Virus record (IMG/VR): IMGVR_UViG_3300008110_006703 | Location: 1 to 23,673 of that record | Length of the DNA stretch: 23,673 bases | Direction: 5' to 3' (one strand) | From: a virus | In this document: positions 2,494 to 16,099 of the stretch, piece after piece | How the letters are laid out: each line of letters starts with the position of its first letter | Position numbering within the stretch: position 1 is the stretch's first letter | The notes under the pieces: model-generated | The model's input: the letters and a program-made list of their open reading frames with translations, nothing else | Database searches by the model: none | What the model was told of the DNA's origin: nothing | Program-made: the position numbers and the translations under genes

Positions 2494-2970
2494 TTAAGAA
2501 TTATTGCTGGCCCACCAGTGCTCCCAGGGGAATACCACCCATTCATCTTGCCTGTCTTCGGCAATATAAGAGCCCACGAAGTCTGCGGCATCCTGGCTAG
2601 CTGGCTTTTCGAACAGTACGGCATAGCGGATATCGCCAGCCAAGGGTACTGTGGCAGCAATTTCCTTGACTGTGACCAGAGTCTTACCGGTGTCATTGAT
2701 GTCGTCGATGAACATCACTGGACCACATCGCCAGGCATCGCGCAGGCCATGACTCACACTCATGGCATCGACTATGGCGGCATCGCGCAGACTTACCTGT
2801 ATGGGAAACAACGGACATTCATAGTAGTGACTTAGCATCACACCCAGGGGCAGTCCACCGCGATTGGGTGCTACTATGGCGCTGGGGCGAAAGTCCTGCA
2901 AAGCACTCTCGCGCACAATTTTATGCAGTAGACTACGCACTTCAAAATCATATACATTGCGATGTTTCAT
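2494..2970 (-). CDS. Phosphoribosyltransferase domain protein
   Basis: A 158-aa type I phosphoribosyltransferase. Residues 86-97 carry the PRPP-binding loop MFIDDINDTGKT (hydrophobic strand, two acidic residues, then TGKT). An early APNRGGLPLG segment (34-43) matches the usual region after the first strand. The family transfers phosphoribose from PRPP to a base such as xanthine, hypoxanthine or guanine; the substrate cannot be told from sequence. Its ATG overlaps the stop of the upstream amidotransferase-like gene by one base (TAATG), indicating translational coupling. It is the last gene of the operon that starts with queD and carries gp47 and gp46. A role in purine or deazapurine salvage for the modification pathway is an inference. 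Confidence 0.85.
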   Translation of the reverse strand: MKHRNVYDFEVRSLLHKIVRESALQDFRPSAIVAPNRGGLPLGVMLSHYYECPLFPIQVSLRDAAIVDAMSVSHGLRDAWRCGPVMFIDDINDTGKTLVTVKEIAATVPLAGDIRYAVLFEKPASQDAADFVGSYIAEDRQDEWVVFPWEHWWASNNS

Positions 2971-6717: not shown

Positions 6718-6896
6718 AGAGAGGCTTTGAGTTTTTCAATTTGGTCTTTGAGCATTAATTTTTCTTTTTTCATTTTACCCATGTCAACATCGTTGAGATA
6801 GTTACTGTATCCCCAGGCAATATTGTATTCTAATTCACGATGGCGTTCTTCTAGATGTTTAATGGTTTCAGTGAGACTGTGGTTTTCATCAATCAT
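6714..6896 (-). CDS. DUF465/YdcH-like small coiled-coil protein
   Basis: A 60-aa protein reading MIDENHSLTETIKHLEERHR at its start, then a second helix with MKKEKLMLKDQIEKLK. The two-helix layout with an LEERHRELE first helix and KKxKLxLKDxI second helix matches the DUF465/YdcH family of small helical hairpins. I chose the ATG at 6896 because AGGGG lies 5 nt upstream; an open frame extends further to 6935 but only inside the queD gene. It slightly overlaps the queD end and overlaps gp47 by ATGA. The function of the family is unknown. Confidence 0.75.
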   Translation of the reverse strand: MIDENHSLTETIKHLEERHRELEYNIAWGYSNYLNDVDMGKMKKEKLMLKDQIEKLKASL

Positions 6897-7416
6897 AGGT
6901 CCCCTCATAGGTAGCACTGTTGGCATTGTGTTCAAATACTTCTACGCTGCGTAGTCTGACTCCTGCACCCACAGGATATCGAGCTCGGAATTGATTGCCG
7001 TTTGGACAATAATATTCATTGCCGTTTTTAAAAATATGCAGTATGGTGGCCATTTCTTTGTAGGCAAGTTCTGCAAACTTCTCACATCCAACTGCTTCTA
7101 CAATACGAATGTCGCATACGCCACCAACGTCGTTAAGCCCTAGTGATGCCAGTGCTTTGAATTTGTCTAAATGTGGATCATCTTCGGCAACTACTAAAGT
7201 ATGATCAAACATCCATTCACTCCACTCCTTGAATGCCTTGAGTCCGCCAAAGTCCATGACCCAGTTACGGTCATCCAGGGTCTCACTTTCAAAGATCAAT
7301 TTGATGCCGATGCTGTAGCCATGCAGCAGACTGCAATGACTATGCGAACTGCGCCATTGACGAAAGCAGCAGCTTAGTCCACGGTCATTACCATAGGTTT
7401 TTGTGCTTAGATACAT
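6889..7416 (-). CDS. queD: QueD-like 6-carboxytetrahydropterin synthase (6-pyruvoyl-tetrahydropterin synthase family)
   Basis: A 175-aa protein of the PTPS/QueD family, which converts dihydroneopterin triphosphate to 6-carboxytetrahydropterin, the second step toward 7-deazaguanines. Visible features are an SSHSHCSLLHGYS segment (H25, H27, catalytic-position C28, H32), the VMDFGGLKAF strand (residues 53-62), the DHT motif (71-73) and GCEKFAE (110-116) at the substrate-binding glutamate position. The usual HGH zinc pair is HGY here (Y34), so the metal site may use H27 or the extra histidine instead. It is the first gene after a strong promoter and leads the operon that carries gp47 and gp46. 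AAGGAG precedes the ATG. Family assignment is firm; activity on this substrate is inferred. Confidence 0.87.
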   Translation of the reverse strand: MYLSTKTYGNDRGLSCCFRQWRSSHSHCSLLHGYSIGIKLIFESETLDDRNWVMDFGGLKAFKEWSEWMFDHTLVVAEDDPHLDKFKALASLGLNDVGGVCDIRIVEAVGCEKFAELAYKEMATILHIFKNGNEYYCPNGNQFRARYPVGAGVRLRSVEVFEHNANSATYEGTYD

Positions 7417-7428
7417 GTTCTCTCCTTA

Positions 7429-7899
7429 CTACTTTATATTATTGTATATTGTCTGCGGTGCAGAGTCAATATTCTCCAGGCGATTTTTTTCTATGTTGTA
7501 GACTCGCTGTCGAAGTTCGGTGGTGGAAAAACTGTGCTTGCGATCATTGAAGTAGAATTCAATGCCACGGTTTAGACATTCAGTCTTGCCAGTAAAATCT
7601 CGGCCCTGATATTCCACACCCAGGATGCGAATGTCTATGGGATAACTTAGAAAGATGTCGATGAGTTCTTTTTCTGTGCTGTACACTACAATCTCATCCA
7701 CATACTTGCAGGCATCGATCTGAACAAATCTTTCAAATACACTCTGTATGGGTTTGTTTTTTTCTTTGGGGCGATCAATGGTAGGATCGGTCTGCAGACC
7801 CACAATTAAATAATCGCATTGGCGTCGTGCTTCTTTGAGCATGGTGACATGACCTGCGTGAAACAGATCAAAGGTTGAACAAGTAAATCCTATTTTCAT
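7429..7899 (-). CDS. Cytidylyltransferase-like nucleotidyltransferase (TagD/RfaE-C type)
   Basis: A 156-aa protein of the HxGH nucleotidyltransferase superfamily. The N-terminus has the GFTCSTFDLFHAGH motif (H14-A-G-H17), and FSTTELRQR near residues 123-131 resembles the ISTT-type motif that binds the nucleotide. The family couples CTP or ATP to a phospho-sugar or phospho-alcohol, for instance glycerol-3-phosphate cytidylyltransferase. The substrate here is unknown. It follows the 2OG-oxygenase gene with an ATGA overlap and is the third gene of the gmd operon, so a role in making an activated sugar or alcohol for glycan decoration is plausible. Confidence 0.88.
   Translation of the reverse strand: MKIGFTCSTFDLFHAGHVTMLKEARRQCDYLIVGLQTDPTIDRPKEKNKPIQSVFERFVQIDACKYVDEIVVYSTEKELIDIFLSYPIDIRILGVEYQGRDFTGKTECLNRGIEFYFNDRKHSFSTTELRQRVYNIEKNRLENIDSAPQTIYNNIK
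7441..7469 (-). promoter_or_regulatory. sigma-70-type promoter for the queD-gp47-gp46 operon
   Basis: On the minus strand TTGACT (7464-7469) and TACAAT (7441-7446) are separated by 17 bp, each one mismatch from consensus. The -35 box lies in the last codons of the cytidylyltransferase-like gene and the -10 box is about 25 bp upstream of the queD start. Confidence 0.75.
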
Positions 7900-8534
7900 C
7901 GGAATAAAGGTCCATGTGCCCAGGTTACTAAACTATTCCGACGCCCACTACGCACCGGCGTTACTTCATGCAGTATAAAGCTAGGAAATACAACAATGGT
8001 TCCGCGCTGTGCTGGAGCCAGTACGGGTTGATCATGACCAATATGCATCAAAAGTTCACCACCCTGATATTCAGCAGGATCTGTGAGCTGCAGAGTCATG
8101 CTTAACTTACGACTGGTCATCTGGCTTTTGACGCCATAGGCAATATCAAAATGCGGAGCATAAAACTCAGCTCTGTCTTCGTTGTAGTTTGTAAACTGCA
8201 GGGGCTCATACATGTCAATGACGAATTTATACCATTCATCGTTGATGGTATGTATACAATCGTTTATTCTATCAAATACCCACTGAGTTTCTGGAGTTGG
8301 AAACAACCATGACAACGTACAGGTTCTGGTACTGTTGACAGCAGAACCATCGGCTATGCGCCCCTCATGCGCCTGCTTGGCCAGACCAATCTCTACAATT
8401 TTATCAAGCTCGGCGTCTGTAAAGCCGCTGGGCATACCAACAAAGGGTTGAAAGGTTTCTTCTCTGAGTTGTTGCATTGTACTATAGATCCATTTTGATT
8501 TAAATTTCTCGTCTAACTCTTGTAATGTCTGCAT
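7896..8534 (-). CDS. 2-oxoglutarate/Fe(II)-dependent oxygenase (prolyl-4-hydroxylase-like)
   Basis: A 212-aa protein with the facial triad HFD (H128, D130) and a distal [14 protein letters not shown] (H189, with R199 for the 2-oxoglutarate carboxylate). The GGELL and [10 protein letters not shown] strands around them are typical of P4H/PKHD-type dioxygenases. Such enzymes hydroxylate protein side chains or small molecules, and phage members are common but mostly unassigned. The first 35 bp overlap the end of gmd in another frame; no better start with a ribosome-binding site is visible. Neighbours suggest a carbohydrate or virion-protein substrate, but nothing in the sequence fixes it. Confidence 0.88.
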
Positions 8535-9528
8535 GAACCATGCCGCGGCAAAGCTCTTCGAGATTGGTATGACTTTCCCAACCTAATTTTTCTCGAGCCT
8601 TGCTGGGATCACCGATCAATAAATCTACTTCTGCGGGTCGATAAAACTGAGGATTGACTCGCACTAAAACTCGACCACTACCAACTTCATAGGCCAATTC
8701 ATCTTCGCCTTGACCAGCGAAGGCAACGTCGATGTCCGCAGCAGCAAATGCCATTTTGACAAAGTCACGCACAGTTTCGGTGCGGCCTGTGCTAAGAATA
8801 TAACTGTCGGCTGTGTCCTGCTGCATCATGCGCCACATGCCTTCGACGTAGTCTTTAGCGTGACCCCAGTCACGTTTGGCATTCATATTACCAAGTTCGA
8901 TGTGTGTCTGTACGTTGTGTTTGATGCGAGCCACACCGTCGGAAATTTTACGAGTTACAAATTCCTTGCCGCGCAGTTTGCTTTCATGATTAAACAGGAT
9001 ACCACTGCAGGCATAGAGATTGTAGCTCTCGCGATAGTTAACGGTCATCCAGTGTGCAAATAGCTTGGCTACACCATAAGGTGAGCGAGGATAGAACGGC
9101 GTGTTTTCAGTCTGTGGTACGGCCTGCACTTTACCGAACATTTCAGACGTGCTGGCCTGATAGTATCGAATTTCTGGATTGATCATGCGAATGGCTTCGA
9201 GGAAATGCAGCGGGCCAGTGGCATTGATTTCTGCGGTAGTCAAGGGCTGTTCAAAACTCAAACCAACAAAACTCTGTGCAGCTAGATTGTATATCTCCTG
9301 CGGCTCGGTCTGTTGAATAAGTCGCATGATGCTGCTAAAGTCAGTAAGGTCATAGCCCACCAATTCCAAACGCTCATGGTCCTTGATGCCGAGTTCTTCG
9401 ATGCGCCAAAAGTTCGGAGCGCTGGTGTGTCGATATGCTCCAAATACTTTATAGCCTTTTTCCAGCAAAAGTTCTGCAAGATAGGCTCCATCCTGACCAG
9501 TAATACCTGTGACGATAGCACGACGCAT
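8500..9528 (-). CDS. gmd: GDP-mannose 4,6-dehydratase
   Basis: A 342-aa short-chain dehydrogenase/reductase-type enzyme of full length for the family. It begins with the NADP-binding [16 protein letters not shown] stretch, has the catalytic STSEMFG and YGVAK (Tyr-x-x-x-Lys) motifs, the NHES/RGxEFVTRKI region typical of GMD, and the [14 protein letters not shown] segment. It converts GDP-mannose to GDP-4-keto-6-deoxymannose, the branch point to GDP-fucose, GDP-rhamnose and related sugars. GGAGG precedes the ATG and a perfect promoter lies just upstream. It is the first gene of a three-gene unit with an oxygenase and a nucleotidyltransferase. No GDP-fucose synthase is seen here, so the next step must be encoded elsewhere or by the host. 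Confidence 0.97.
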
Positions 9529-9553: not shown

Positions 9554-9582
9554 ATTATAAATTAGCTGCGGTTATTTGTCAA
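9554..9582 (-). promoter_or_regulatory. Perfect sigma-70 consensus promoter for gmd
   Basis: On the minus strand TTGACA (9577-9582) and TATAAT (9554-9559) are exactly 17 bp apart. The -35 box overlaps the final codons of the glycosyltransferase gene and the -10 is about 25 bp before the gmd ATG. It starts a new transcript inside a run of co-oriented genes. Confidence 0.9.
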
Positions 9583-10645
9583 TGAAGCTGCGAATGTCTT
9601 TGAACATTTTATCGCCGCTGAAGAAGGTAGATTGAATTCGATCCAATTGAGTTTCGAGATGAATGCGATAGCTTTCGTAGTTCTCAACAAAGTCAATGAT
9701 CTGATTGGCCAGAGCCGGTTTATACAAAGCAAAATTACTATAAAAATCTTCGTTCACAGCATATTTAAATGGTGCTTGATAAATTTCACGATAACTTAAT
9801 TTATCGGGCACTATGGGCAGACATCCTGCACTCATGGATTCGAAAGTACCGATGCCGAGATTTTCATGTCTATTAGCTGAGAAGATAACCTTGCAGGATT
9901 TTAAAAATTCATAGTATTGTTCTTTGCTAAAATTCTGTTCCTGAGTTTTAATAAATTCAATCTCAGGATGCGTGCGCTGAACCTCTTCTCGCAGCTCATC
10001 AAAGATCCACGGAGCCTTGTCGTTATTCAAACGATGTGGGAATACAACAATGTCTTTCTTTGGTTGCTTATTTCTAAGATTTTTAATCCACTCCAGGGGA
10101 TATACACCGGGACTATAACACTTAGATGTCTGACCAATGTCCAGAGTCTTGATGAATAAATTCTTATTGTGTTCAGATCCAAAGAAGTTCTGATCCAAGG
10201 CATGAAACATGCTGCGTTCTAAGTCACGAGCCCAGGCTTTATTCTCAATGGTTGATCCAAGAATATCAGTTGGGTCATACCAACCTGCATGCCAAATACC
10301 GCCCATGTATACTTTGATGCCAGTTAGTTCACTCATATACTTAACAAAGTGTACTGTCTGATTCCAGGCATCGGTAAAAAAGAAGTAGTCGCCTTTCTTT
10401 ACCGTACCATCACCAAACATTTTGGCAATTTTTGTTGCCTGACTTGCTTTATATTCGCAGGTACCGGCAAAATTAAAAAATGCACCCGCAGTAGGAGCGT
10501 CATAACCTTCGGCTTCACCGCTGATATTCTGCACAGTAAAAATATCGCCGAGATGTTTCTCAGCGATCTGCGGAAAATATCGCTGCCATTGCTTGGTATA
10601 ACGATTATCCAGGGGCTCAATGTCTACAATATAAAGTGTTCTCAT
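9572..10645 (-). CDS. Glycosyltransferase (GT-B, GT4-like C-terminus)
   Basis: A 357-aa protein. The C-terminal half has a GT-B donor-site pattern: VVFPHRLNNDKAP as the start of the second Rossmann domain, then SANRHENLGIGTFESMSAGC, an E-x(n)-E-like loop in which GIGTFE contacts the nucleotide sugar in related enzymes. The N-terminal half carries aromatic-rich acceptor-domain segments and no signal peptide or membrane span. Donor and acceptor are unknown; with gmd and the ManC-type cupin nearby, a GDP-linked sugar is a reasonable guess, and a virion protein, modified base or surface glycan could be the acceptor. It ends the folE operon and overlaps its upstream neighbour by ATGA. Confidence 0.82.
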   Translation of the reverse strand: MRTLYIVDIEPLDNRYTKQWQRYFPQIAEKHLGDIFTVQNISGEAEGYDAPTAGAFFNFAGTCEYKASQATKIAKMFGDGTVKKGDYFFFTDAWNQTVHFVKYMSELTGIKVYMGGIWHAGWYDPTDILGSTIENKAWARDLERSMFHALDQNFFGSEHNKNLFIKTLDIGQTSKCYSPGVYPLEWIKNLRNKQPKKDIVVFPHRLNNDKAPWIFDELREEVQRTHPEIEFIKTQEQNFSKEQYYEFLKSCKVIFSANRHENLGIGTFESMSAGCLPIVPDKLSYREIYQAPFKYAVNEDFYSNFALYKPALANQIIDFVENYESYRIHLETQLDRIQSTFFSGDKMFKDIRSFIDK

Positions 10646-10863
10646 ATAAAGTCGTAGGTCTTTTCAAAAATTTCTTTATCACAGATGTAAAGTTCGCCAT
10701 CAATGCCCCTCATTAGATAATCACCGGCCTTGCCTTGTTTGTAATTACCTTCCAGGGTATTGACTCGAAACTCTTCGTCAATACGTTTAGCATGTACAAC
10801 AATGGGTCTTTTCATACAGCCACCCATGTCTGCCACTTGTTCAAATGTATCAAATGTTTTCAT
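10642..10863 (-). CDS. Small phage protein with GDYLMRG...GELYIC motif, function unknown
   Basis: A 73-aa protein with a KRPIVVHAKRID strand and a GDYLMRGIDGELYICDKEIFEKTY C-terminal half. The pattern GDY-x2-x-G-x2-GE-x-Y-x4-x-F-x2-TY is one I recognise from many short phage proteins of unknown role. It is coupled by ATGA overlaps to the cupin fusion upstream and the glycosyltransferase downstream. No catalytic residues are evident. Confidence 0.75.
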   Translation of the reverse strand: MKTFDTFEQVADMGGCMKRPIVVHAKRIDEEFRVNTLEGNYKQGKAGDYLMRGIDGELYICDKEIFEKTYDFI

Positions 10864-11630
10864 TTTCTCTCAATATCTTCTTCAACGCAGTGTTCACCGT
10901 ATTGGATCTCAATCATCTTCAAAGGCTCGGTGCCTTCATTACATAATTGATGCCATTCGTTTTTAGAAATGTGCACATATTCATGCGTATTATATACGCC
11001 CTTGAGCTCGATGTCAGTAGATTTTTCATCTAATGTCATGACAGTAGCCGTACCTTCGGCAACAAACCAATGTTCCGATCTTTGTTGATGCTTCTGCATG
11101 CTCAGCGATTTACCGGGTTCCACAGTAAGTTCTTTGACTTTGGTTTGTTCACCTACATTATGGATAACTCGATAATAGCCCCAGGGACGTTCAGTCTTAG
11201 GTGCTTTCCATTCTTCTAAAATCCAGCTACTGCTATTGGCTTTATTTTCTCCACCCACACCAAATTCAAATCTTAGATTGTCGTCCTGATAGTCCATTTC
11301 TGGAATATTGGCAGCAGTACGATCGCCGCCATTGGCAAAAATCAACTCTGCACTGGGCCACATTAAACGACATTTATGAATGCAGTCCTTGCTGTTGTTG
11401 GCATCGTCATTGAAACTCATGACATGATCAACAACCTTTAGTCCTTGAATAATTTTACTGCGTTCCAACCAAGACATAAAAGGCCGACCCTTTTTGCGGA
11501 TCAGCCAGGCATCGGAATTGATACCAACAACTAACTTGGTGCCTAGACGAGCCGCGGCCTGAAAATATTGTACATGGCCGCTGTGCAGAGGATCAAAGCC
11601 TCCGGTAACAATGACGATCTTTTCTGTCAT
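10860..11630 (-). CDS. Fusion of HxGH nucleotidyltransferase and ManC/PMI-type II cupin
   Basis: A 256-aa two-domain protein. Residues 1-140 are a cytidylyl/adenylyltransferase-type domain with VTGGFDPLHSGH (HSGH at 16-19), as in the C-terminal domain of HldE. Residues 145-256 are a mannose-6-phosphate isomerase type II cupin like the ManC C-terminus: TERPWGYY, VKELTVEPGKSLSMQKH and RSEHWFVAEGTA, with H181 and H187 as likely metal ligands, ending in IEIQYGE. Each domain would serve sugar-nucleotide synthesis (isomerising fructose-6-P and activating a sugar phosphate), but this pairing is unusual; ManC normally carries a mannose-1-phosphate guanylyltransferase. I chose ATG 11630 because it makes an ATGA overlap with the QueD-like gene; a GTG at 11639 is the alternative. 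Confidence 0.85.
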   Translation of the reverse strand: MTEKIVIVTGGFDPLHSGHVQYFQAAARLGTKLVVGINSDAWLIRKKGRPFMSWLERSKIIQGLKVVDHVMSFNDDANNSKDCIHKCRLMWPSAELIFANGGDRTAANIPEMDYQDDNLRFEFGVGGENKANSSSWILEEWKAPKTERPWGYYRVIHNVGEQTKVKELTVEPGKSLSMQKHQQRSEHWFVAEGTATVMTLDEKSTDIELKGVYNTHEYVHISKNEWHQLCNEGTEPLKMIEIQYGEHCVEEDIERK

Positions 11631-11995
11631 GGGTTCCACTCCAATATAGCACCATTTTCCCCATCCTCAAATACCTGCACTGTCATGGCGCGGCCTGGAT
11701 AGCGATCGGCAATGGTAAAGATTAGTTTTTCTGCAATCATTTCACAACTCTGATAGTCGAGCTGCAGACCACCCGATTGTTCTGAATACAATGATTCAAT
11801 CCACCGTTTGAATTGGATGAATTCGATATCGCGGTCATTGTGCGTGACGCTGATGCGCACCCTGAAATGAAACATATGGCGATGAGGATAGCCAAGAAAC
11901 GATACGTCGGCAAGGTTAGGATCCTCCAGAGCAGCAGGATATTTGTGTATCCCTTCGCGTTGAAATGTTACTTCGATGTGTCTTGTAATCATCAT
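11627..11995 (-). CDS. Divergent QueD/PTPS-like protein next to the transglycosylase
   Basis: A 122-aa protein. FLGYPHRHMFHFRV supplies several histidines at the place of the PTPS zinc site, followed by an IEFIQFKRWIESLY helix matching the family's DF-xx-LK helix, then SCEMIAE (compare GCEKFAE in the other QueD of this phage) and a final VQVFEDGENGA strand like the family's V-x-V-x-E. It is shorter than typical QueD and lacks the upstream cysteine position. It is sandwiched by ATGA overlaps between the transglycosylase and the cupin fusion, so it is probably a dedicated partner in deazaguanine chemistry. Whether it is a second 6-carboxytetrahydropterin synthase or has a new reaction, such as acting on CDG, cannot be told here. 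Confidence 0.7.
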   Translation of the reverse strand: MMITRHIEVTFQREGIHKYPAALEDPNLADVSFLGYPHRHMFHFRVRISVTHNDRDIEFIQFKRWIESLYSEQSGGLQLDYQSCEMIAEKLIFTIADRYPGRAMTVQVFEDGENGAILEWNP

Positions 11996-13242
11996 GCAAA
12001 CAATCCTTCCAATGTGCTGGGTTCAGTATATTCTAATACTGGTTGAGTGTCCATGTAGGGTCCGACATGGCGAAGCCAGTGATCAAAGTCCGCCGTTGTC
12101 TGTACTGAGTATAAGGCATCAAAGGCATTCCTGTCAAGCCCTTTGGCAAACTTCATCACCTCTTTTTTACATTTGCTGACGCGATCAACTTGTTCGATAA
12201 AATTTTTGATGCAGCTAGACACATACACAACATAGGTCTGTAGACTGTTATCAATCGAACCATGTTTGGCTTCATAGGTTTTACTGCTGATGTTCAGACA
12301 TTCATAGAAGGTGTCGACATCCAATTCATAGAACGGATAATTGCGTTTGATGTCTTCCAGCACAATGCGATAGCTATCGTCAAAGGCTCGAGTAAAGGTG
12401 AACGTAGTATCGTTCATGTAGTATCGACCCTGAGTAACTCCGCTGGTGTGCGTGGTTGAGTCATAGCTCATTTCTACATCTTGATATACTCCGTTCTGCA
12501 TCATGATGATCTGCGGCAACATGCGATATACTGATCCCACACCCAGCAGATGCAGATGTCGACTTTCTAACTCTATGGGAAGCTGTGAATAGTAAAAGGC
12601 TCGTTTGATGTCTTCTAGACTGCCTTTGCCCAGAGCCGCAGCTCCCATGGCTATGCCGCCGATTTTTTTAACATGGTCAGGCGTAAGTTCATCTACAATA
12701 TACTCCACCCATTTCATATAGCTGTCATAGTCATTGCCCTGAGCAATCAACATGGGTCGAGCGCCGCTGCCTTTCTCTTGAAAGGCATCTATTTGTCGGC
12801 GAAGATTTCTTCCGGTTTCCCTGGCACATCGTTCAAGATCGCTGCGATCAAAACGTCGATTGCTAAGATCAAGTCGTTCGCTGCGTCCGCTATTTAAAGT
12901 GCGCACAGGTATAACATCAAAGCACATGGCAATAGTAGAATTTTTGGCCTGGCTGGCATAAACTTCTTCTTTGAGTTGATCAGTGATGGTTTTACCCAAG
13001 GTGATCATCTGCAGGCCACCGCTGTCGGCATGGATACTATGCACATGCGGTCTATAGTGTTCGCCCATCCATTCGCCGATGCGCTTTTCCACAAAGGCAT
13101 TGTACAACAAACTTACGCGATGATTGTTGGTGTTATTCAAGGCACCAAAAGTACGACAGAACCAATCCATGTTCTGTGGACTTAGGCTCTCAAGATACAT
13201 CAATTTAAAGTAACTACTGCCGCTGGCAACGTATTCAAACAT
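11992..13242 (-). CDS. Guanine transglycosylase of the TGT/DpdA type (probable DNA 7-deazaguanine insertion)
   Basis: A 416-aa TIM-barrel transglycosylase. Signatures in order are HADSGGLQM (D73-S74-G75-G76), KIGGIAMGAAALG near 193-205 (the GGLAxG-type substrate loop) and HLLGVGS at 231-237, with SYDSTTHTSG near 259-268 offering D261 as the likely nucleophile. The CxCxxC zinc cluster of bacterial tRNA-guanine transglycosylases is absent, as in phage and genomic-island DpdA proteins, which insert preQ0 or related bases into DNA instead of tRNA. It sits in one operon with folE, MazG and a QueD-like gene and near queE and queD. DNA as substrate and protection from restriction are inferences from the known DpdA system. 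A tRNA-directed role cannot be excluded. Confidence 0.85.
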   Translation of the reverse strand: MFEYVASGSSYFKLMYLESLSPQNMDWFCRTFGALNNTNNHRVSLLYNAFVEKRIGEWMGEHYRPHVHSIHADSGGLQMITLGKTITDQLKEEVYASQAKNSTIAMCFDVIPVRTLNSGRSERLDLSNRRFDRSDLERCARETGRNLRRQIDAFQEKGSGARPMLIAQGNDYDSYMKWVEYIVDELTPDHVKKIGGIAMGAAALGKGSLEDIKRAFYYSQLPIELESRHLHLLGVGSVYRMLPQIIMMQNGVYQDVEMSYDSTTHTSGVTQGRYYMNDTTFTFTRAFDDSYRIVLEDIKRNYPFYELDVDTFYECLNISSKTYEAKHGSIDNSLQTYVVYVSSCIKNFIEQVDRVSKCKKEVMKFAKGLDRNAFDALYSVQTTADFDHWLRHVGPYMDTQPVLEYTEPSTLEGLFA

Positions 13243-13947: not shown

Positions 13948-14219
13948 GCTGCCTCCTTGAAGATATTGCTCCAACGTTCCAATTTACTGTACTTAGTTCT
14001 AGTGGCCTGACGCACAAATTCAGGATCTATGAGTTTATGTGCCTGTAGTAATTCAATCATGCACAGCAGATCACCAACTTCTTCTTCCAGACGTTCGCGA
14101 TTGGTCTTACCATTATAGGCTTCATCCAGGCCAAATCTTAAAATTTTGCTGATGACCTGACTTACCTCAGCACATTCTTCCTGCGTGATTAACAGGACTT
14201 CTTGTTGTTGATTGTTCAT
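13944..14219 (-). CDS. MazG-like nucleotide pyrophosphohydrolase
   Basis: A 91-aa all-helical protein with the metal-binding pattern of MazG/dUTPase-like all-alpha NTP pyrophosphohydrolases: ITQEECAEVSQVISKI (E14, E15, E18) in the first helix and RLEEEVGDLLCMIELL (E46, E47, D50) in the third. It would hydrolyse a nucleoside triphosphate to the monophosphate and pyrophosphate. It overlaps folE by ATGA. Phage MazG proteins have been linked to altering nucleotide pools; next to folE and a transglycosylase it could also clean up a noncanonical or unmodified nucleotide, which is speculation. Confidence 0.87.
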   Translation of the reverse strand: MNNQQQEVLLITQEECAEVSQVISKILRFGLDEAYNGKTNRERLEEEVGDLLCMIELLQAHKLIDPEFVRQATRTKYSKLERWSNIFKEAA

Positions 14220-14944
14220 TTCATTTTAGCAACGATGTCGTAAAATTCTTTCTTCAGGCTCTTGTCGCTTTGGAACACACCACGCATGATCGCAGTAGTC
14301 ATGTCGCTCTCATGCTCCTTGACACCGCGATGAGTCATGCAGTGGTGCTCGGCCTGAACTAGCACTGCCACGCCTTCGGCTTGAGTTTCGGCTTCTATGG
14401 CGTCGGCAATCTGTACTGTCATTTCTTCTTGAATCTGAGGACGGCTGGCAATCCAATCCGCGATGCGATTGAACTTACTAAGTCCAATGACGTTTTTTCC
14501 AGGATAGACTCCGATATAGGCACGCCCCACAATATTTTGGAAGTGATGAGCACAGGTACTACGTATTGAGATGGGTCCTGTGACGTATAGTTGGTCATAT
14601 TCAGTTACATTAGGAAAGGCTGTTACTTTGGGAGGATTTTTATAGCGGCCGCCAAAGGTTTCATGAACAAACATCTTGGCCACTCGACGTGCTGTGTCTT
14701 GTGTATTATGATCATTATCAGTGTCGATGATTAAACTATTTAGCACACCTTGAAATTGGCAGGCTACTTCGTCTACCAGACGTTCAACTTCTTCTTCACT
14801 TTCAATAAAGTCACTGATGTTGTCATTGCTGAAATATCTAGCACCCTGCTGACGAATTCGGTTGCGAATAACATTGCTGATGCTGGTGTGTATCATTGGC
14901 AAATCATCACCGTCATTGCTTTCATAAGCCTTATTATATACCAT
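14216..14944 (-). CDS. folE: GTP cyclohydrolase I
   Basis: A 242-aa enzyme that converts GTP to dihydroneopterin triphosphate, the entry step for folate and 7-deazaguanine synthesis. The catalytic zinc ligands are visible: STCAHHF (C131, H134) and AEHHCMTHRG (C202), with the GLSKFNRIADW segment between them. Compared with a minimal FolE core it has an N-terminal extension of about 50 residues of unknown role. It heads the long operon that carries the transglycosylase and has its own strong promoter with GGAG before the ATG. Its position argues that the product feeds QueD and QueE rather than folate. Confidence 0.96.
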   Translation of the reverse strand: MVYNKAYESNDGDDLPMIHTSISNVIRNRIRQQGARYFSNDNISDFIESEEEVERLVDEVACQFQGVLNSLIIDTDNDHNTQDTARRVAKMFVHETFGGRYKNPPKVTAFPNVTEYDQLYVTGPISIRSTCAHHFQNIVGRAYIGVYPGKNVIGLSKFNRIADWIASRPQIQEEMTVQIADAIEAETQAEGVAVLVQAEHHCMTHRGVKEHESDMTTAIMRGVFQSDKSLKKEFYDIVAKMK

Positions 14945-15160: not shown

Positions 15161-16072
15161 TTATTTTCCTATGACGTTGCCAAACACATAGCAATGATTG
15201 CGTGTAGCCACCTGATAACCACGCAGCATGGCCTCGGTGCAGATCTCACCAACTGTGGATACTTCCTGTGAGTCCTTGGTGGCTCCTACAGGCATGATCC
15301 AGACGTCAGGACAGTAGTAGCCTTGCTGACCAAATAGACGTTGAATACGATCAACATGGTCATCTAGTTCAGTCCAGCAGTCCTGACTACCATTGCACAC
15401 AAACTTCAAAACTGCGGTGCTGTAGGTTTCTGTGGCATAGCTAAAAATTACATCGTCTTTGACAGCATCCTTTTCACCAGCCACGGTCCAGAGTTTAGGA
15501 CTCATGGCCCAGTGCCAACGACTACCACCGTCTTGTGCAAACTCTTCATTGATGAAGGTACGCAGCTCGTCAGTCAAGGGCTTGGTGGCATTGGTCTCCA
15601 CAGTAACGGTGCGAGGCAGTTGACCGCGCGCCTGCAGTTCTTTTAGTATGGCCAGCATGGCCTTTTGCCACATCATGGGCTCGCCACCAGTAAAGCAGAG
15701 CTGCGTATCCTGACCAGTTATGGGATGCACCCAATCGCCGTTGGGATTGGTTTTATGTCGTATTTGATCCGTCAGCAGATCACAAACGCGAGGTGCATCG
15801 GCATCGTGTGCCAGGTTTTTATACTTGGCACTCCAACTATAACTTGAGTCACAGCCATGATCCCATACAGGTAAGTCTTCGATGCGCTTTACTTTGCTAA
15901 CATCAAAGCTGGCATAGGGCAAGACATAGGTTGCGGGATTGGTTGGATCCATCTGACCAAATCCATTGCACTCTAGATTGCAGCCAAAGAAGCGAAGCCA
16001 GACGCTGGACTTGCCTGCTAGCTCAGCCTCACCTTGAAAGCTGTGAAATATTTCTGAATAACGAATTCGCAT
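15161..16072 (-). CDS. queE: 7-carboxy-7-deazaguanine synthase (radical SAM)
   Basis: A 303-aa QueE. It begins MRIRYSEIFHSFQGEAEL, typical of the family, and has a GGEP motif (residues 129-132) for S-adenosylmethionine. The [4Fe-4S] cysteines are C31, C35 and C74: CX3C is followed by a 38-residue insertion before GCDSSYSW, instead of a compact cluster loop. It converts 6-carboxytetrahydropterin to CDG by ring contraction. I chose ATG 16072, with GGAG 5 nt upstream, over ATG 16087, which lacks this signal. It is separated from folE by one small gene and has its own promoter. Confidence 0.93.
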   Translation of the reverse strand: MRIRYSEIFHSFQGEAELAGKSSVWLRFFGCNLECNGFGQMDPTNPATYVLPYASFDVSKVKRIEDLPVWDHGCDSSYSWSAKYKNLAHDADAPRVCDLLTDQIRHKTNPNGDWVHPITGQDTQLCFTGGEPMMWQKAMLAILKELQARGQLPRTVTVETNATKPLTDELRTFINEEFAQDGGSRWHWAMSPKLWTVAGEKDAVKDDVIFSYATETYSTAVLKFVCNGSQDCWTELDDHVDRIQRLFGQQGYYCPDVWIMPVGATKDSQEVSTVGEICTEAMLRGYQVATRNHCYVFGNVIGK

Positions 16073-16099
16073 AACAACTCCATTCAAGATAATGCCGCT

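Follow-up and report, generated by a model that had tools for sequence, protein, structure and literature searches.

Among the closest described relatives of the locus analysed here are the DpdA2 systems typified by Vibrio phage nt-1 (Hutinet et al. 2019, PMC6884629), with which it shares the transglycosylase family, FolE, QueD and QueE; it differs from them in carrying a short protein in the place of QueC and, in addition, a glycosyltransferase. The latter has its C-terminal GT4 domain in common with QTMAN (PF12038), the mannosyltransferase that glycosylates queuosine, a 7-deazaguanine, in tRNA (PMC12313893); it lacks the PF12038 N-terminal domain. The short protein resembles QueD (PF01242; E. 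coli QueD, PDB 4ntk) in its predicted T-fold, three putative zinc histidines and the PT-x-E-like and C-terminal V-x-E glutamates. It differs from QueD in that the catalytic cysteine is absent, the Asp-His loop is deleted, H52, R55 and E58 are new and invariant, and the identity is ~19%. By description it also recalls DpdL, said to be proposed for the processing of 7-carboxy-7-deazaguanine (CDG) in phages that have FolE, QueD, QueE and DpdA and no QueC; in 2023 Cui et al., as cited in PMC12783734, reportedly predicted that DpdL is a CDG decarboxylase. A link to a QTMAN-like glycosyltransferase is not known to be part of the DpdL description.

The gene string of the window

The window, that is, the whole 23.7-kb stretch of DNA that was analysed, looks like part of a T4-like phage, judging from gp46/47-, UvsW- and head-gene-like ORFs read by eye. 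From QueE (16087) to QueD (6889), all its pathway genes share one strand:

15161 to 16087, minus strand: QueE-like radical SAM protein (CDG synthase)
14216 to 14944, minus strand: FolE (GTP cyclohydrolase I)
11992 to 13242, minus strand: DNA-guanine transglycosylase of the DpdA2 type, with 32% identity to the DpdA2 of phage nt-1 (PMC6884629)
11627 to 11995, minus strand: the short protein, 122 aa, a QueD-related putative zinc T-fold protein of the phrog_17812 family
10860 to 11639, minus strand: RfaE-like nucleotidyltransferase with a cupin/mannose-6-P isomerase-like domain; its internal ATG couples it by ATGA to the short gene
10642 to 10863, minus strand: 73-aa ORF with ATGA coupling at both ends
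9572 to 10645, minus strand: GT4 (GT-B) glycosyltransferase, its C-terminal half closest to QTMAN-type genes
8500 to 9528, minus strand: GDP-mannose 4,6-dehydratase-like gene, which could possibly supply the sugar donor
6889 to 7416, minus strand: QueD homolog in which Cys28, Asp71-His72, Glu112 and Glu162 are kept and F/H/Y replace the histidine zinc triad

The ATG of the short gene and the stop of DpdA2 share the bases ATGA, and the sequence-only reading had given both this overlap and the coordinates of the gene pair (11627-13242) correctly. A second ATGA, at the end of the short gene, is the start of the nucleotidyltransferase/cupin protein, an internal ATG that was read directly in the sequence, and two further ATGA overlaps downstream of that gene reach the glycosyltransferase. 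The same reading had placed a more canonical QueD some distance away in another operon. A QueD with a PTPS domain does lie 4.2 kb off, but its assignment to another operon is unsupported, because the genes from FolE (14944) to QueD form a single same-strand string with intergenic gaps of at most 43 nt, the DpdA2-to-QueD stretch included. A 2OG-Fe(II) oxygenase-like protein (7896-8534(-)) is also part of the string. The window further encodes a phosphoribosyltransferase (2494-2970(-)), possibly for base salvage, whose family is represented at 67 of 152 loci that carry the short gene.

Fold and residues of the short protein

The short ORF is a real gene, and its 122-aa product is under purifying selection (dN/dS ~0.15 against its closest relative, L002). 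In single-sequence searches it matched PHROG 17812 (function unknown; E 7e-39) and nothing in Pfam or NCBIfam; PF01242 (PTPS) did not match the window protein, and 3 of 54 family members matched it at E >= 0.029. A PDB sequence search with the family profile returned chance bacterioferritin matches only. The AlphaFold2 model (pLDDT 93.8) has the beta-beta-alpha-alpha-beta-beta T-fold of solved members, and the best PDB match found with Foldseek is E. coli QueD (4ntk; E 9e-5, probability 1.00, TM ~0.7). Comparison of the short-family and QueD profiles with hhalign gave E 3e-5 and 6e-5, limited to the C-terminal 41 columns. Profile comparison, predicted fold and joint alignment together thus point to kinship with QueD. 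The sequence-only reading had proposed a structural comparison with QueD and had counted the protein in the QueD family, a membership that holds for predicted fold and profiles and that single-sequence Pfam and NCBIfam searches do not see.

The following positions were located by alignment with QueD:

11945 to 11947, minus strand: codon of His17, aligned with the first zinc histidine of QueD; invariant in the family
11876 to 11884, minus strand: codons of His38-Arg-His40, opposite the zinc histidines of the QueD HGH motif; invariant
11822 to 11842, minus strand: H52-NDRDI-E58, a family-specific block with H52, R55 and E58 invariant (QueD equivalent ..V-x-DF)
11741 to 11749, minus strand: Ser83-Cys84-Glu85, opposite the glutamate of the QueD PT-x-E / GCE motif
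11657 to 11668, minus strand: E110-D111-G-E113, opposite the glutamate of the QueD C-terminal V-x-E-T motif

H17, H38, H40, H52, R55, E58, S83, C84 and E85 show little or no variation in 54-92 relatives. The three-histidine pattern of the QueD zinc site (H ... H-x-H) is therefore present in aligned and invariant form, and the short protein probably binds zinc through H17, H38 and H40. The QueD catalytic cysteine, on the other hand, is missing in all ~100 family members checked. The segment ahead of H38-R-H40 holds an invariant Leu34 and no cysteine, and the C-x3-HG motif of QueD has no counterpart in the short protein, as had been noticed from the sequence. The catalytic Asp-His pair is missing from the family as well, its whole loop being deleted in the aligned members, and the positions of the lost catalytic residues now hold family-specific invariant residues. 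The (S/G)CE-x2-AE motif that had been pointed out in both proteins is indeed common to them: the short protein has SCEMIAE and the neighbouring QueD GCEKFAE.

The neighbouring QueD (Pfam PTPS domain, E 4e-13) shows the reverse pattern: Cys28, Asp71-His72 and both glutamates are kept, and the zinc positions read F/H/Y. Its description as the original of which the short protein is a duplicate did not survive this comparison. We rejected a recent duplication, and since the short protein keeps the histidine triad that the neighbour has lost, it appears to be a zinc T-fold protein of an old, separate family within the PTPS/QueD superfamily. A QueD that has lost two of three zinc histidines is also found in most relatives that carry the short gene. 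We considered a two-protein QueD, with the short protein contributing the zinc and its neighbour the Cys and Asp-His residues. We dropped it because in PTPS the cysteine and the zinc ligands are contributed by one and the same chain, and a fully canonical QueD is encoded at several loci. In other proteins the short domain is fused to different N-terminal regions, an alcohol-dehydrogenase domain or an AAA domain (L091:8182-9363, L087:14428-15312, BFVD A0A6J5LEZ6 and A0A8S5V119).

Partners of the short gene

The short protein was found at more than 150 loci. Searches with tblastn returned 26 cultured phage records, at least hundreds of IMG/VR contigs and 18 contigs from bacterial and archaeal genomes or bins; besides IMG/VR contigs and metagenome bins, the family is carried by cultured phages that infect Pseudomonas, Acidovorax, Xanthomonas, Rhizobium, Cellulophaga and Synechococcus. 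Among 152 loci, the commonest neighbours are the glycosyltransferase (127), a ~515-aa DpdA-like family (108), FolE (99), a 174-aa family (96) and QueE (74). The ~174-aa family (L126:5432-5956 and 95 other loci), which matches nothing in Pfam, PHROG or PDB, lies directly upstream of the short gene at loci with the 515-aa family.

Two transglycosylase families accompany the short gene. The window DpdA2 is 31.9% identical to that of nt-1 (YP_008125322; E 6e-34) and has the TGT-type Asp/DSGG motif, with D73-S-G-G invariant. The ~515-aa family (L047:7811-9358 and 107 other loci), which takes the place of DpdA2 elsewhere, gives no match in Pfam or PHROGs and carries the TGT motifs GDSGGFQ, LNVLQG and H-x-LGT; on its own its TGT-likeness is weakly recognised, and it is related to DpdA2 by profile comparison (E 8e-7). 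The short protein is paired with one family in some genomes and with the other in others, never with both, and one or the other is present at 36 of 43 well-flanked loci. Neither was recognised in phiST, RHph_I1_18, D479, MA9V-3, Bakedbeans or Ahp1, all of which carry the short protein. Being a near neighbour of two mutually exclusive DpdA families, the short protein is tied to base insertion and not to one lineage.

We then compared the occurrence of QueE and QueC. QueE is present in 11 of 11 cultured phages checked with the short protein, and canonical QueC in none of these 11, nor in any of 38 IMG/VR contigs, fragmentary as these are, whose weak matches were read one by one. Conversely, all six DpdA2 phages without the short protein (nt-1, KVP40, phi-ST2, 1.081.O, pf16 and Moby) have QueC. 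DpdA2 phages thus carry the short protein or QueC, never both in one genome (Fisher p 0.002 by genomes and 0.018 by lineages, few independent lineages being sampled). The window is itself a fragment; its close relative G001 (167 kb, DpdA2 77% identical) has QueD and likewise lacks QueC. A CDG-producing pathway and a DpdA hence occur together without QueC, and the simplest inference is that the short protein replaces QueC, that is, performs the step after CDG.

Of the QueC-like matches examined individually, those of X1 and G003 are NAD-synthetase-like, that of G766 is not QueC, those of G007 and G009 are divergent and lie outside the short-gene flanks, and that of phage D479 corresponds to the extra PP-loop paralog that KVP40 has alongside its true QueC. 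This second QueC-like PP-loop protein of D479 (L106) and KVP40 (L112) has a zinc-Cys motif and an altered P-loop (SGIDS/SGLDS). QueC-like PP-loop paralogs are present in three genomes with the short protein, D479, G007 and G009.

The window glycosyltransferase (9572-10645(-)) has a predicted GT-B/GT4 fold. A profile built from 21 homologs and run against 249 Pseudomonadota genomes matched the C-terminal half of all 20 QTMAN-type (PF12038) genes of this set, together with homologs in a Magnetospirillum genome that itself carries the short-protein module, and no other GT4; among bacterial glycosyltransferases of these genomes, its GT4 domain is thus closest to QTMAN. A direct hhalign comparison with the C-terminal GT4 domain of QTMAN gave 97.7% and E 1.5e-12. 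Because the N-terminal PF12038 domain is missing from all 21 family members, we regard the glycosyltransferase as a likely relative of QTMAN and not as a member of that family. At the 43 well-flanked loci, glycosyltransferase and DpdA occur together at 35 (36 with ACP17) and are both absent from 7. The glycosyltransferase is missing from DpdA2 phages that have QueC and no short protein, and also from the six phages listed above in which neither DpdA family was recognised; ACP17, Phosso, PA5oct and Paride are among the phages that have it. It is a candidate deazaguanine-DNA glycosyltransferase. As far as we found, its link with the short protein is undescribed in the literature, and the sequence-only reading foresaw neither this link nor the Streptomyces operon discussed below.

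Proposed function and alternatives

From the predicted fold, the residue pattern, the gene coupling, the pathway context and the mutual exclusion with QueC, we infer a zinc site, a substrate, a reaction and roles for single residues. The short protein would be a PTPS/QueD-derived zinc T-fold enzyme that has lost CPH4 synthesis and that, taking over from QueC, acts on the QueE product CDG, its most likely activity being zinc-dependent decarboxylation; we put the probability of this reading at roughly 0.47. Apart from its 'duplicate' part, the earlier suggestion that a QueD relative performs another task around CDG has good support, QueD catalytic residues and canonical QueC both being absent. 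In metal-dependent decarboxylases of carboxy-oxo heterocycles, the carboxylate and the oxo group chelate one metal. A metal site and guanine-anchoring glutamates, without the acid-base residues of QueD, would suit CDG decarboxylation, which is the likeliest reaction. The retained E85 and E110 would grip the guanine edge of CDG, Zn2+ at H17/H38/H40 would chelate the 7-carboxylate and O6, and H52/R55/E58 would stabilise the carboxylate and protonate C7, yielding CO2 and 7-deazaguanine, which the translationally coupled DpdA2 would then exchange for guanine in DNA. A role as CDG decarboxylase is plausible, and the literature has in part anticipated it; the short protein and DpdL, which we liken by their place in the pathway, may be one family.

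The QueE-less Streptomyces operon and the PP-loop paralogs of D479, G007 and G009 speak against decarboxylation, as does the linked glycosyltransferase, which would find no evident acceptor in plain 7-deazaguanine; glycosylation of the deazaguanine in DNA fits poorly with such a base. The short protein might instead use CDG or a pterin precursor to make a base for the glycosyltransferase, the sugar acceptor being for example the carboxylate or a hydroxymethyl derived from it. The final mark would then be glycosylated 7-deazaguanine DNA, decarboxylation not being the point. This we consider unlikely, although the glycosyltransferase is the commonest partner of the short gene, comes and goes with DpdA, is missing from DpdA2 phages without the short protein, has a profile specific to QTMAN-type genes apart from the module-bearing Magnetospirillum, and shares the string with sugar-nucleotide genes, and although one viral protein combines the short domain with an alcohol dehydrogenase domain. 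Six phages, however, have the short protein and no glycosyltransferase, the short protein contains neither a reductant nor an activation domain, and another substrate for the glycosyltransferase is conceivable. A non-catalytic protein, whether a QueD subunit with a regulatory or structural part or a carrier that hands CDG to DpdA, would account for the lost catalytic residues, the coupling to DpdA, the position beside QueD in Streptomyces and the retention of zinc histidines missing from the neighbouring QueD. A strictly conserved metal triad and the new invariant H/R/E set nevertheless point to catalysis, the canonical QueD of Streptomyces and Magnetospirillum needs no complementing, and some loci have the short protein beside DpdA with no QueD nearby, which makes such a role rather improbable. 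A redundant, functional second QueD (CPH4 synthase) is scarcely credible. Fold and zinc-site residues are QueD-like, but neither the cysteine nor the Asp-His pair is found in the ~100 members checked and a separate QueD with both is already encoded; we rejected it, the short protein being, to judge from its residues, not functionally a second QueD.

The streptomycete relatives bear on the substrate. They are divergent (32-33% identity), and their occurrence in only 2 of 392 genomes is too small a sample to define their pathway. In Streptomyces NEAU-Y11 (L172:7938-11584), the short homolog shares an operon with QueD, FolE, a guanine-deaminase-like gene and an FAD oxidase gene, and no QueE was found in the genome; an operon of this description, without QueE, was noted at L179 as well. 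The NEAU-Y11-type operon is possibly a pterin-derived natural-product cluster. A second streptomycete has an amidohydrolase, the short gene and QueD together. A CDG-only role is weakened by the absence of QueE from the NEAU-Y11 operon, where the substrate would have to be a pterin such as CPH4, and these loci favour an activity that takes in carboxylated guanine-like rings more widely, or another job there. Both streptomycetes could also be taken to mean that the protein works at the level of the pterins in every host, for example on CPH4 or dihydroneopterin triphosphate, altering the input of QueE. This is quite improbable, since QueE is present in 11 of 11 phages and decarboxylation at the pterin stage would starve it, and the divergent Streptomyces proteins perhaps have a derived function.

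Under the preferred reading, in which the short protein processes CDG, the family would provide a testable enzyme for the fate of CDG in QueC-less phages at more than 150 loci. It is conceivable, if doubtful, that the short protein, the QTMAN-like glycosyltransferase and DpdA make up an undescribed branch of DNA modification in which QueC is dropped, CDG is reprocessed and the inserted deazaguanine is glycosylated. DNA made through this branch would carry 7-deazaguanine with a sugar attached, possibly by C-glycosylation at C7. This gives an explicit prediction: glycosylated deazaguanine DNA, which targeted mass spectrometry aimed at known bases would miss.
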